From Candidatus Tectomicrobia bacterium (lineage in GTDB: Bacteria > UBA8248): DNA of 64,000 nucleotides. Positions 6,324 through 47,000 of the stretch are shown here, one piece after another (positions within the stretch are counted from its first letter, which is position 1; each line of letters begins with the position of its first letter). A program made the position numbers and the translations under genes. The notes below the pieces were generated by a model, which worked only from the letters and a program-made list of their open reading frames with translations, ran no database searches and was not told where the DNA came from. Where the stretch lies: the NCBI GenBank assembly GCA_016192135.1, contig JACPUR010000035.1, forward strand, positions 62,001-126,000, in the 5' to 3' direction.

Positions 6324-6881
6324 CTACCCCGTGATCCCCTCCAGGGAGATGCTCTTGCCGTTCAGCTCGACCGTGCTGGTCAAGGGCACGGCGGTCCGCA
6401 CCATCTTCTCGGCGTAGCAGCCCTGCTTGGCGAGCCGGATGAGGCGCAGCACCCGGTCCTCGGGCTCGCCGGACTCCACCTTGAAGTGGGTGCGCACGGC
6501 CGTGCAGCCCGAGTCCACCGTGCCCTTGAGGACGGAGCCCCGGAGGAAGTAGTCGAACTCCACCCGGCAGCTCGCCTTGCGGAAGGGGGTCTTGGTCATG
6601 TGGGCGTACCGCCCAAGCTGGGTGAGCAGTCAGAAGCCCACCCCCATGGCCACGTAGGTGAGGGGCTGGGGGTGGCGGTCCTGGCCGCCGATGCGGGGCG
6701 GCTCGTCGCAGAAGACCTCGAAGTGGCGGTAACGGCCCACCTTGAGCTGGCCCTCCCCCTGGGTCTCGGTCTCGGCGACCATGGTGATCTCGTAGCCCTG
6801 GGGCGGGAGCTCGGGCTTGTCGATGGAGCGCTCGCCGGGGACGGCGCTCTCGTTCCAGGGATATTTCGGGCTCTCGATCAT
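6324..6881 (-). CDS. OsmC-family protein with in-frame TGA (probable selenoprotein)
   Basis: Read as one frame from ATG 6881 to the stop at 6324, this gives 185 residues with a single TGA at codon 84 (6630-6632). Both halves read as OsmC/Ohr-family sequence. Before the TGA comes HPQPLTYVAMGVGF; after it comes LLTQLGRYAHMTKTPF, then a FDYFLRGS strand and AKQGCYAEKMVRTAVPL with the second family cysteine. In OsmC proteins the first catalytic Cys lies exactly at the TGA (consensus like GGC-LT), so Sec84 is expected to form the redox pair with the later Cys. OsmC-like selenoproteins are known. A stem-loop follows at 6601-6615. GAGGAGAGGAC lies just before the ATG. Family role: thiol-dependent reduction of organic hydroperoxides or a related function. 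The alternatives are a nonsense mutation or sequence error. Confidence 0.82.
6601..6615 (-). promoter_or_regulatory. SECIS-like stem-loop of the OsmC gene
   Basis: On the minus strand, TGGGC pairs with GCCCA around the loop GGTAC. The loop begins 20 nt after the TGA at 6630-6632. Bacterial SECIS elements lie within the coding sequence just downstream of the UGA, with a G in the first two loop positions next to a U, and this hairpin fits. It also encodes residues of the protein (LGRYAH). Confidence 0.6.
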
Positions 6882-7273
6882 GCGTCCTCTCCTCGCGGAT
6901 GTGGAATGTCCTGCGGGGAGGATACCGGGCTTCCGCCGGGCTTCCAAGGCGGGCCGCCCCTCCCGCCTGCGCGGGCCGAAGCCCGCTCCCGCCTTCGCGA
7001 AGCCCGCTTCGGCGGGCGAAGGAAGGTCGGCGGGCGGAGGAAGGTCGGCGGGCGAAGGCCCGGAGGCCGCGCCATGAAAAATGGTTTGCAGTTCCCCTCC
7101 CCCTCCGGGGGAGGGCAGGGTGGGGGAGCAGCCATCCGGGCGCCCCTCCCCCCTCGGGCCCATGCGGGCCCGACCTCCCGGGGGGAGGGGGGAAGCGTCA
7201 TTGGATTTAACCGGCAGCCGTTTTCCCAAGAGGCGGGCCGCCCCTCCCGGAGGAGGGGCGGGCACGAAGAAGG
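6882..7273. other. Gap between permease 2 and the OsmC gene
   Basis: 392 nt with no supported gene. It holds an 18-bp tandem repeat (7011-7060) and two polypyrimidine/polypurine blocks at about 7093-7125 and 7141-7190. The second block has a TCGGGCCC / GGGCCCGA tip, the inverted counterpart of the element at 6080-6126. Confidence 0.6.
7011..7060. repeat. 18-bp tandem repeat, 2.7 copies
   Basis: The unit GGCGGGCGAAGGAAGGTC occurs at 7011-7028, again at 7029-7046 with one change, and partially at 7047-7060. Confidence 0.65.
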
Positions 7274-40126: not shown

Positions 40127-41926
40127 ATGGAGGCGATATCCGCCCCCGCGGGATGGCTGGCGGACCGGGCGGCCCAATGGAGAAACGAGCCCGGCAAGTT
40201 CGCCGCGATGGCGCTGACGGCCTCGTTCCTGGCCGCCCTCATCGCCTACCCCTTCCTGACCCTTTTCGTCATGAGCCTTCAGCACCCGGAGACGGGCGCC
40301 TGGACGATCTCAAGCTACGTCCGCATCTTCACCGAGGAGAGCTTCCGGGACGCGTTCATCCGCTCGATCTGGCTCAGCCTCATCGTCACCTTCTTCTCGC
40401 TCATTCTCGGCATCCCCATGGCCTTCGGGGTCTCGCGCACGCGGATGCCCTTCCGGGAGCTCGTGCGAAGCCTCACCGGCATCGCCTTCATCATCCCGAG
40501 CTTCATCGGGGCGGTGGGCTGGATCTTCCTGCTCGGGGAGAACCAGGGGGACATCAACCGCTTGGTGCGCTGGATCGTCAACCCCTTCCTGGCGGAGCCG
40601 ATCGAGAGCGGCCCCTTCACGGTCTTCTCCTTCTGGGGTTTGGCCTTCGTCCTGGTCCTGCATTTTTTCCCGTTCGTCTTCTATTCCGTGAGCGCCTCGC
40701 TCGACAACATGGACCCCTCCTACGAGGAGGCGGGGAGCATGGTGGGGGCGGGGAGGCTCCTGACCGTGCTGCGGATCACCCTCCCCATGGCGGCCCCCGC
40801 CATCGTGTCGGGCGCCATCATGGTCTTCCTGGAGACGCTGGCGGCGTTCGGCGCCCCCCAGGTCATCGGCGTTCCCGCCCGGTTTCACGTTCTGACGACG
40901 CGCATCTACAACCTGTTCGAGCCGCCGCCGAACTTCGCCATGGCGACGGCGCTGGCCTCTCCGCTCATCGTCATCACGGCGGGGGCGCTGTGGCTTCAGC
41001 GGCGCATCCTGTCCCGGCGGCAGTACGTGACGGTGGGCGGCAAGGCCACCGCCCCCGCGCCCATGGACATCGGGCGGTGGCGCTACGTCCTGAGCGGGTT
41101 CTCCATGCTCGTGGTGTTCGTCTCGGTGGGGGCGCCGATGTACGCCATCTTCGCCACCTCCGTGACGGAGGTGTGGGGGCGGCCGCTCTTCACCGGGCTC
41201 TTCCCGCCGGCCGCCGGCGGCTTCTCCTTGACGCACTACGAGCAGCTCTTCGACCCCGCCCTGGCCAACTGCGATCTTCCCGGCGGCTACATCGTCACCG
41301 AGGCCATATGCGCCGTCTACAACAGCATGTGGCTCTCGGCGGTGGCGGCCACCCTCATCCTCCTGCTGGCGGTGGTGTCGGCCTACATCGTCGAGCGCTC
41401 GGGAATCGATGGGAGGGGCGCGCTGACCGGCCTCATCATGATGACCTTCGCCTTCCCCTCCGTGGCGCTGGCCGTGGGGCTCTACGTGGGCTACCTGAGG
41501 CTCGAGTGGCTGCCCGTCTTCGGCACCATGATGATGTTCATCCTGGCCTACATCACGCGCTACATCGCCTTCGCCTTCATTTTCGTGCGGAATACGATGA
41601 AGCAGGTGGGCCCCGAGATGGAGGAGGCGGGCCGCATGGTGGGGGCGGGGTGGACGCGGACCACCTGGAGCATCTCGGTGCCCCTGCTCAAGAGCGGCCT
41701 GTGGATCGGCTGGACGCTCGTCTTCGCCGTCCTGCTCCGTGAGCTGCCCCTCACCATCATGCTGAACGTCCAGGGGGCGCAGACCATGGCGGTGCGCATC
41801 CTGCTTTTCATCGAGGACGGCCTCCTCGAGCGCGCCGCCGCGATGTGCATCATCATCATCGTGGCCTCGGTCGGGGCGACGTGGCTCGTCCGGAGGTTCG
41901 CCGGGAAATCCGTAATGGAGGTGTGA
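40127..41926 (+). CDS. ABC transporter fused permease (FbpB-type)
   Basis: A 599-residue inner-membrane protein with two transport domains. EAA-type loops are YEEAGSMVGAGRLLTVLRITLPM in the first half and MEEAGRMVGAGWTRTTWSISVPLL in the second. About twelve hydrophobic segments are seen, starting with KFAAMALTASFLAALIAYPFL. A GGACGGAGGCTGC site precedes ATG 40127. The ATPase gene begins 3 nt after its stop, so the complex is co-expressed. Confidence 0.9.
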   Translation: MEAISAPAGWLADRAAQWRNEPGKFAAMALTASFLAALIAYPFLTLFVMSLQHPETGAWTISSYVRIFTEESFRDAFIRSIWLSLIVTFFSLILGIPMAFGVSRTRMPFRELVRSLTGIAFIIPSFIGAVGWIFLLGENQGDINRLVRWIVNPFLAEPIESGPFTVFSFWGLAFVLVLHFFPFVFYSVSASLDNMDPSYEEAGSMVGAGRLLTVLRITLPMAAPAIVSGAIMVFLETLAAFGAPQVIGVPARFHVLTTRIYNLFEPPPNFAMATALASPLIVITAGALWLQRRILSRRQYVTVGGKATAPAPMDIGRWRYVLSGFSMLVVFVSVGAPMYAIFATSVTEVWGRPLFTGLFPPAAGGFSLTHYEQLFDPALANCDLPGGYIVTEAICAVYNSMWLSAVAATLILLLAVVSAYIVERSGIDGRGALTGLIMMTFAFPSVALAVGLYVGYLRLEWLPVFGTMMMFILAYITRYIAFAFIFVRNTMKQVGPEMEEAGRMVGAGWTRTTWSISVPLLKSGLWIGWTLVFAVLLRELPLTIMLNVQGAQTMAVRILLFIEDGLLERAAAMCIIIIVASVGATWLVRRFAGKSVMEV

Positions 41927-45597: not shown

Positions 45598-46269
45598 TCA
45601 GTCCACGATGGCGATCGCGCGGGCGGGGGCCGCCTCGGCGTCCGCAATCTTGATCGGAAGGGCCATCATGAAGAAGCGCTCCTTCTTGACCTTATCCAGG
45701 TTGTCCAGGCCCTCGATGAGGACGACGCCCGCCCCGAGCATGACGTGGTGCACCTTGAACTCGGTCGAGTCGAAGTCGGTGCGGCGGGCGTCGTACTCCT
45801 CGAAGAAGTCGAAGGCGATGGCCTTGGGCTTGCGCGCGACCAGCCATTTGGCGGCGGAGACATCGATGTAGGGGGACTTGGTGTAGTACTCGAGCGTGCC
45901 GAACATCTTGCGGCCCCAGTCGGTGCGCACCACGATGATGTCCCCGGCGCGGCACTTCTTCTCGTGCTTCTCGAGGTGGGCCGCTTTGATCACCGCGTTG
46001 GGCTTGCCCATCGAGGTGACGTCGAGCATGACGGCCTCGCCCATGTAGAGCTGGAAGTCGATGGCCCCGACGGTGGGGGCGCCCTTCACGACGTGCAGGG
46101 GGCTGTCCACGTGGGTGCCGGTGTGGGCGCTGAGCTCGAGCCAGGTGGCCTGCCAGTGGTGGGAATAGGGCCCCCGGTAGGCGGTGGTGTGCTTCACCTT
46201 CTGGGGGACGCCCGGGGGGATGGGGACGCCGCTCTTGATCTCGCAGCTGATGTCGATGTAGCGGGGCAT
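45598..46269 (-). CDS. Cyclase family protein (kynurenine formamidase-like)
   Basis: A 223-residue metal-dependent hydrolase of the cyclase/KynB superfamily. The signature HTGTHVDSPLHVV, with two His and an Asp that bind the metal, lies near residues 49-61. The C-terminal part keeps FDFFEEYDARRTDF and HHVMLGAGVVLIEGLDNLD. Family members hydrolyse N-formylkynurenine or other amide/cyclic substrates. AAGGAGGCTGTC precedes ATG 46269. It is the first gene of the cyclase-M42-MqnD-like operon. Confidence 0.87.
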   Translation of the reverse strand: MPRYIDISCEIKSGVPIPPGVPQKVKHTTAYRGPYSHHWQATWLELSAHTGTHVDSPLHVVKGAPTVGAIDFQLYMGEAVMLDVTSMGKPNAVIKAAHLEKHEKKCRAGDIIVVRTDWGRKMFGTLEYYTKSPYIDVSAAKWLVARKPKAIAFDFFEEYDARRTDFDSTEFKVHHVMLGAGVVLIEGLDNLDKVKKERFFMMALPIKIADAEAAPARAIAIVD

Positions 46270-46439
46270 GACAGCCTCCTTGTGGATATGCGCGCGCCCG
46301 AGCCACTGGCCGGCTTATGAGCGCCAATCTTGGCACGCACGCACGCTTCTGCCAAGCCTCCCGGCCTGTTCAGGCGCCCGGCCAGGAGGCGTATGATGGT
46401 TCCCGGAGGCGTCCGCCCGGACGCCCGAAAGGAGGCTGC

Positions 46440-47000
46440 ATGCAATCGCCGGAAATGACGGGTCCCGAGGGTCCCGCCCCCGAGATACGGTTCGAGGACG
46501 GCGGGGGAAGCCCCGTTCCGCTCTCCTCGCTGTGGAAGCAGGGACCCCTCGCGCTCGTCTTCATGCGCCACCTGGGGTGAATTTTCTGCCGGGAGCAGGT
46601 GGCGCAGTTGCGCCGCGCGTGGCCGCTGTTCCAGGACAAGAAGATCCGGGTGGTCGCCGTGAGCCCGGCGGAGGGGGCCGCCGCCGAGGCGGTGTGCGGG
46701 ATGCTGGGCTCTCCCTTCATCTGCCTGGGGGATCCGGCCGGAAAGGCATACGACGCCTTCGGCCTCGTTCAGGCCGAGGTCTCGCAGTTGATTAACTTCC
46801 GCACCTTCTCGCGCGGCCTCTGGGCCATGCTGCGCGGGCACAGACATGGCCAGACCATCGGCGACCGCTCGCGCCTGCCGGGCGCCTTCATCATCGACGG
46901 GGAGGGGACGATCCGCTGGGGGCGCCGGGGGCGGGATGCGGCCGATCATCCCACGGCGCAGGACCTGCTCAACGCCTGGGATGGGATCCAGCGGGCGTGA
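46440..47000 (+). CDS. Peroxiredoxin-like (AhpC/TSA) protein with in-frame TGA (probable selenoprotein)
   Basis: Reading from ATG 46440 to the stop ending at 47000 gives 186 residues with one TGA at codon 47 (46578-46580). The context is ALVFMRHLG-TGA-IFCREQVAQLRR. Cys homologues of this AhpC/TSA-like family read '(F)LRHFGCPFCREHVAQLR', so the TGA replaces the first Cys of the CxxC redox motif, giving UxxC. Downstream of the TGA the frame continues with family features: VVAVSPAEGAAAE, CLGDPAGKAYDAFGL, RGHRHGQTIGD, LPGAFIIDGEGTIRW, RDAADHP. AAGGAGG lies 4 nt before the ATG. A stem-loop lies at 46601-46614. Expected role: Sec-dependent thiol peroxidase or reductase. A nonsense mutation is the alternative. 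Its last 32 nt overlap the convergent hydrolase gene. Confidence 0.85.
46601..46614 (+). promoter_or_regulatory. SECIS-like stem-loop of the peroxiredoxin-like gene
   Basis: GGCGC and GCGCC form a 5-bp stem around the loop AGTT. The loop begins 26 nt after the TGA ending at 46580. The G at loop position 2 followed by U, and the distance, agree with the known bacterial SECIS pattern. A weaker alternative hairpin (CTGC-GCAG, 46586-46607) overlaps it. Confidence 0.6.

Follow-up and report, generated by a model that had tools for sequence, protein, structure and literature searches.

The window, a 64,000-nucleotide stretch of DNA, carries on its plus strand a gene (46440-47000) for a SelL-related, peroxiredoxin-like protein whose frame, running from an ATG at 46440 to a terminal TGA stop at 46998-47000, holds a sole internal stop, a TGA at codon 47 (46578-46580), and is otherwise open. 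Read through this codon, the product is 186 amino acids long, with a predicted selenocysteine (Sec) at residue 47 in the context ...ALVFMRHLG-U-IFCREQVAQLRR..., and it matches the family NF040769. The TGA occupies the first position of a UxxC motif (U47-I-F-C50), and the second is held by TGC (46587-46589, plus strand) encoding Cys50, the presumed resolving cysteine. The ATG is preceded by the leader AAAGGAGGCTGC, a strong ribosome-binding site; a Shine-Dalgarno-like AGGAGG, read directly from the sequence, lies just 5' of the start at 46430-46435 of the same strand. No obvious signal peptide was found in the read-through protein. The divergent neighbour on the minus strand (45598-46269), named from its own sequence alone, is cyclase/kynurenine-formamidase-like. 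A minus-strand frame antisense to the gene (46194-46949) was discounted as an artefact of high GC content. The positions given in an earlier note on this DNA for the ATG, the TGA at codon 47, the end of the frame and a downstream hairpin all proved correct.

Searching 290 genomes for homologues with the NF040769 profile, we found one in-frame TGA in every same-family orthologue (seven other genomes: G001, G002, G007, G008, G010, G012 and G014) and likewise in six genomes of distant lineages (G156, G100, G048, G167, G189 and G272). The codon position is identical in all 13 other carriers and is followed by xxC. The terminal stop at the equivalent place varies among the relatives (TAA/TAG or TGA), whereas the internal codon is always TGA and never TAA or TAG. 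The remaining homologues have Cys at this position, among them those of named MAGs from Chloroflexota and Armatimonadota. In the joined-frame alignment the column of residue 47 is Cys or TGA throughout and that of Cys50 is invariant, which upholds the claim of the earlier note that the TGA stands at the first redox Cys (RHLG-U-IFC-REQ). Homologues with neither residue at this place, one of the objections raised there, were thereby excluded, and so was another, a miscalled base, since 13 other, separately assembled genomes share the TGA. The cyclase-like neighbour, 76-93% identical, adjoins the TGA gene in five relatives (G002, G014, G012, G010 and G007), indicating orthology of the TGA genes with conserved synteny. 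Comparison of seven family sequences gave dN/dS values of 0.09-0.38 downstream of the TGA; the coding part 3' of this codon is under purifying selection. Extra damage was seen in two incomplete assemblies, a TAA in G010 and a frameshift in G001. In a tree of 27 homologues built with the Sec codon masked, the gene's own family forms one supported Sec clade, and at least five Sec/Cys changes are required across the tree; because its deep branches are weak, we claim no direction for these changes.

Downstream of the TGA lies a putative bacterial SECIS hairpin, GTGGCGC-AGTT-GCGCCGC (46599-46616, plus strand; loop 46606-46609), whose core GGCGC-AGTT-GCGCC spans 46601-46614, just as the earlier note had described it. 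The published bSECIS model calls for a loop of 3-9 nt with a G in positions 1-2, a stem of 4-16 bp, a distance of 16-37 nt from the UGA and a minimum free energy of -7.5 or below (PMC13188914). The hairpin agrees with the model in every respect, having an AGUU loop with G second, a full stem of 7 bp, a distance of 25 nt from the TGA to where the loop begins, and an energy of -12.3 kcal/mol when folded alone. Judged on this one sequence, it stands out only a little: some 5% of synonymous recodings reach its stability, and 2% match it in the number of pairs in place. Because a few percent of recodings match it, the case for a SECIS element is carried by conservation in relatives and not by this sequence alone. 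Of the 13 TGA homologues, 12 retain the stem with its AGTT loop at an unchanged distance from the TGA, and the Cys homologues mostly lack it; mean fold energies are -12.7 for the 13 TGA homologues versus -5.1 for 26 Cys homologues. Stem covariation was 0.282 versus 0.144 in shuffles (0 of 500) and at most 0.161 in slid controls; 86.8% of the cells in the TGA-homologue stem were paired, and double-change cells numbered eight. In one distant homologue (G189, L035) replacement of a G-C pair with A-U keeps the SECIS-like stem paired while changing the protein from Arg to Cys (AQLR to AQLC). The exception is G048 (L031), in which the TGA is present, the conserved hairpin is absent at that position and no SelA match was found; this may be a decaying case or an incomplete bin. 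An Rfam search of the region gave no family above its threshold, a result that does not count against a SECIS element because sequence similarity among bacterial SECIS elements is low.

The read-through protein matched NF040769 (NCBIfam, SelL-related redox protein) at 136.2 bits, over the curated cut-off of 120 (8.4e-40; profile positions 2-172 of 173), and Pfam AhpC-TSA at 1.2e-14; it missed the gathering cut-off of AhpC-TSA_2 (PF13911), scoring 25.7 against 27 bits. An AlphaFold2 model made from an input alignment of 22 sequences has a thioredoxin-like fold (pLDDT 94.8), in which residue 47 is predicted to lie immediately before a helix at 48-59, as does the catalytic Cys of CxxC proteins. 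The nearest solved structure, both by sequence profile (3.7e-19) and by fold, is human prostamide/prostaglandin F synthase. We concluded that the gene is a member of the catalogued family NF040769, and that family and mechanism are already known (PMC2398784, PMC9312934, PMC13188914). The reading of the gene as a UxxC selenoprotein, put forward in the earlier note, is strongly supported; with its family catalogued before, the gene is not an unusual event.

The source genome (an assembly of 3.92 Mb, 96.8% complete) encodes SelA and SelB, which adjoin each other on contig 15 and are both over their curated cut-offs, and a tRNA-Sec of 74.8 bits (cut-off 47). A profile search of the assembly found no SelD over its cut-off; a SelD-like match at C13:54341 was rejected because it is under the cut-off, has a thiE-like frame beside it and resembles ThiL. 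Thus the machinery that the earlier note had proposed to look for is present as far as SelA, SelB and tRNA-Sec are concerned, while SelD is missing from the assembly, where a gap is likely. The selD gene, itself with an in-frame TGA, is present in both other members of the genus and in most of the family. Two genes were taken near selD in G002: one is without a match in the source assembly and the other has only paralogues of at most 40% identity. As these genes are missing too, a gap is more likely than loss of selD alone, and the absence of selD is probably an effect of the assembly. G007 is likewise without SelD over the cut-off despite having SelA, again probably through a gap. Among the 13 other TGA carriers, nine have SelA over the cut-off and nine a strong tRNA-Sec (>70 bits), a tally that rises to 10 of 13 over the cut-off only if G048, with a best score of 50 bits, is counted. 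Profile searches found no full-length SelA in G012 (98% complete) or G010 and none at all in G001, and no tRNA-Sec over the cut-off was found in G156 (99% complete). Most carriers without a SelA or tRNA-Sec match are incomplete assemblies, G156 and G012 being otherwise.

Two further TGA genes were found in this genome. An OsmC-related gene on the minus strand of the window (6327-6932; NF041052, 168 bits versus a cut-off of 95) has an in-frame TGA at 6632-6630 in the context ...YVAMGVGF-U-LLTQ..., with a GC-rich short-loop hairpin downstream. It is probably the second TGA event of the window that the earlier note had mentioned, which is then an OsmC-related (seleno)protein, also of a catalogued family. 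The third, a Prx-like gene on contig 3 (G000:C3, 12914-13156; L060:1915-2157), was detected as a TGA-bearing profile match reading FYRGHF-U-GHCQRQ, has a perfect GCAGCTC-GTG-GAGCTGC hairpin just 3' of the TGA, and has TGA-bearing matches of the same size in most genomes of the family. The organism is therefore likely to have several selenoproteins.

An ordinary peroxiredoxin-like gene with CxxC that had suffered a nonsense mutation, or been misread in sequencing, could give a similar picture, for TGA is one base away from TGC and TGT and two of the TGA homologues have further breaks (the TAA of G010 and the frameshift of G001). What refutes this account is the persistence of the TGA from genome to genome: 13 others, distant lineages among them, share it, and none has TAA or TAG in its place. 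The account also runs against the purifying selection downstream and the association of the hairpin with TGA, not Cys; the chance that it is right is negligible. The conserved frame 3' of the TGA means that something reads through, which would also be expected if a changed genetic code or a suppressor made TGA be read as Trp or Cys. However, TGA terminates genes of the window, including the selenoprotein gene itself (46998-47000) and a permease ending at 41926, the SelA and SelB frames are without internal stops, and there is a SECIS-like hairpin together with machinery dedicated to Sec, leaving such recoding hardly credible.

The lack of selD in a 96.8% complete assembly might also mean that this gene was lost, that the machinery is non-functional in the species and that the protein is now made only in truncated form. 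We regard this as very improbable, given that the two other members of the genus and most of the family have selD, that genes near the G002 selD are also absent from the source assembly, as a gap would give, and that the selenoprotein gene is still intact with its hairpin. It is equally improbable that the species decodes UGA as Sec without a SelD of its own, with selenophosphate from another source or from an unrecognised synthetase.

Together, the conserved TGA at a redox Cys, the constraint beyond it, the SECIS-like RNA, SelA, SelB and tRNA-Sec, and the predicted fold strongly support the Sec reading, and we are highly confident that the gene encodes a thioredoxin-fold, SelL-related (PRXL2-like) oxidoreductase whose codon 47, UGA, is read as Sec; Sec insertion, catalytic cycle and substrate are what we infer for it. 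SelB with Sec-tRNA(Sec) would bind the hairpin 25 nt downstream and deliver Sec at the UGA, placing the U47-I-F-C50 motif at the N-terminus of a helix. The Sec47 selenolate may then attack an oxidised substrate, such as a peroxide or a disulfide, Cys50 would resolve the intermediate as a selenenylsulfide, and a thioredoxin-type reductant would reduce the latter.

Automatic annotation would end the protein at residue 46 or begin it at GTG 46599, and in either case the active site would be lost. Correct annotation is merited: it gives a multi-selenoprotein bacterial lineage a clean SelL-related UxxC selenoprotein, backed by evolutionary evidence and accompanied by a SECIS-like element that covaries, and makes the choice of Sec versus Cys in the NF040769 family testable. 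The interest is modest and the general picture unchanged.

The motif of SelL is UxxU. SelL proper thus needs two Sec, unlike the present gene, which has one TGA (U47..C50). The SelL found in aquatic animals and in marine bacteria combines a thioredoxin fold of Prx-like type with a Sec residue in its redox motif (PMC2397514, PMC2398784) and has a diselenide bond (PMC2397514); because the motif here is UxxC, a selenenylsulfide is expected in place of the diselenide. Classical peroxiredoxins are marked by a PxxxT/SxxC active site and peroxidase activity, whereas the motif here reads RHLGUxxC. ResA, TlpA and BCP-PrxQ have the thioredoxin-like fold in common with this protein, with weaker matches than human prostamide/prostaglandin F synthase; ResA is a membrane-anchored extracytoplasmic reductase. 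The human synthase (9us9, 9usa) has CxxC at the equivalent place, the pair being named by the structure of its C44S/C47S double mutant, but it carries Cys and not Sec and is only ~17% identical to this protein, so that its substrate is not transferable. The prokaryotic selenoproteome catalogue contains a Prx-like thiol:disulfide oxidoreductase (PF00578, UxxC/UxxU) (PMC13188914, PMC9312934), and Prx-like UxxC families were described in PMC2398784. That oxidoreductase and this gene share the AhpC-TSA domain, the UxxC motif and a bSECIS, putative here, directly downstream; the exact catalogue subfamily is uncertain because NF040769 is not named in the catalogue (PMC13188914, PMC9312934). At the same active-site position the NF040769 members of this analysis have either TGA or Cys, and this gene, with its UxxC motif and one Sec, shows no essential difference from that family.
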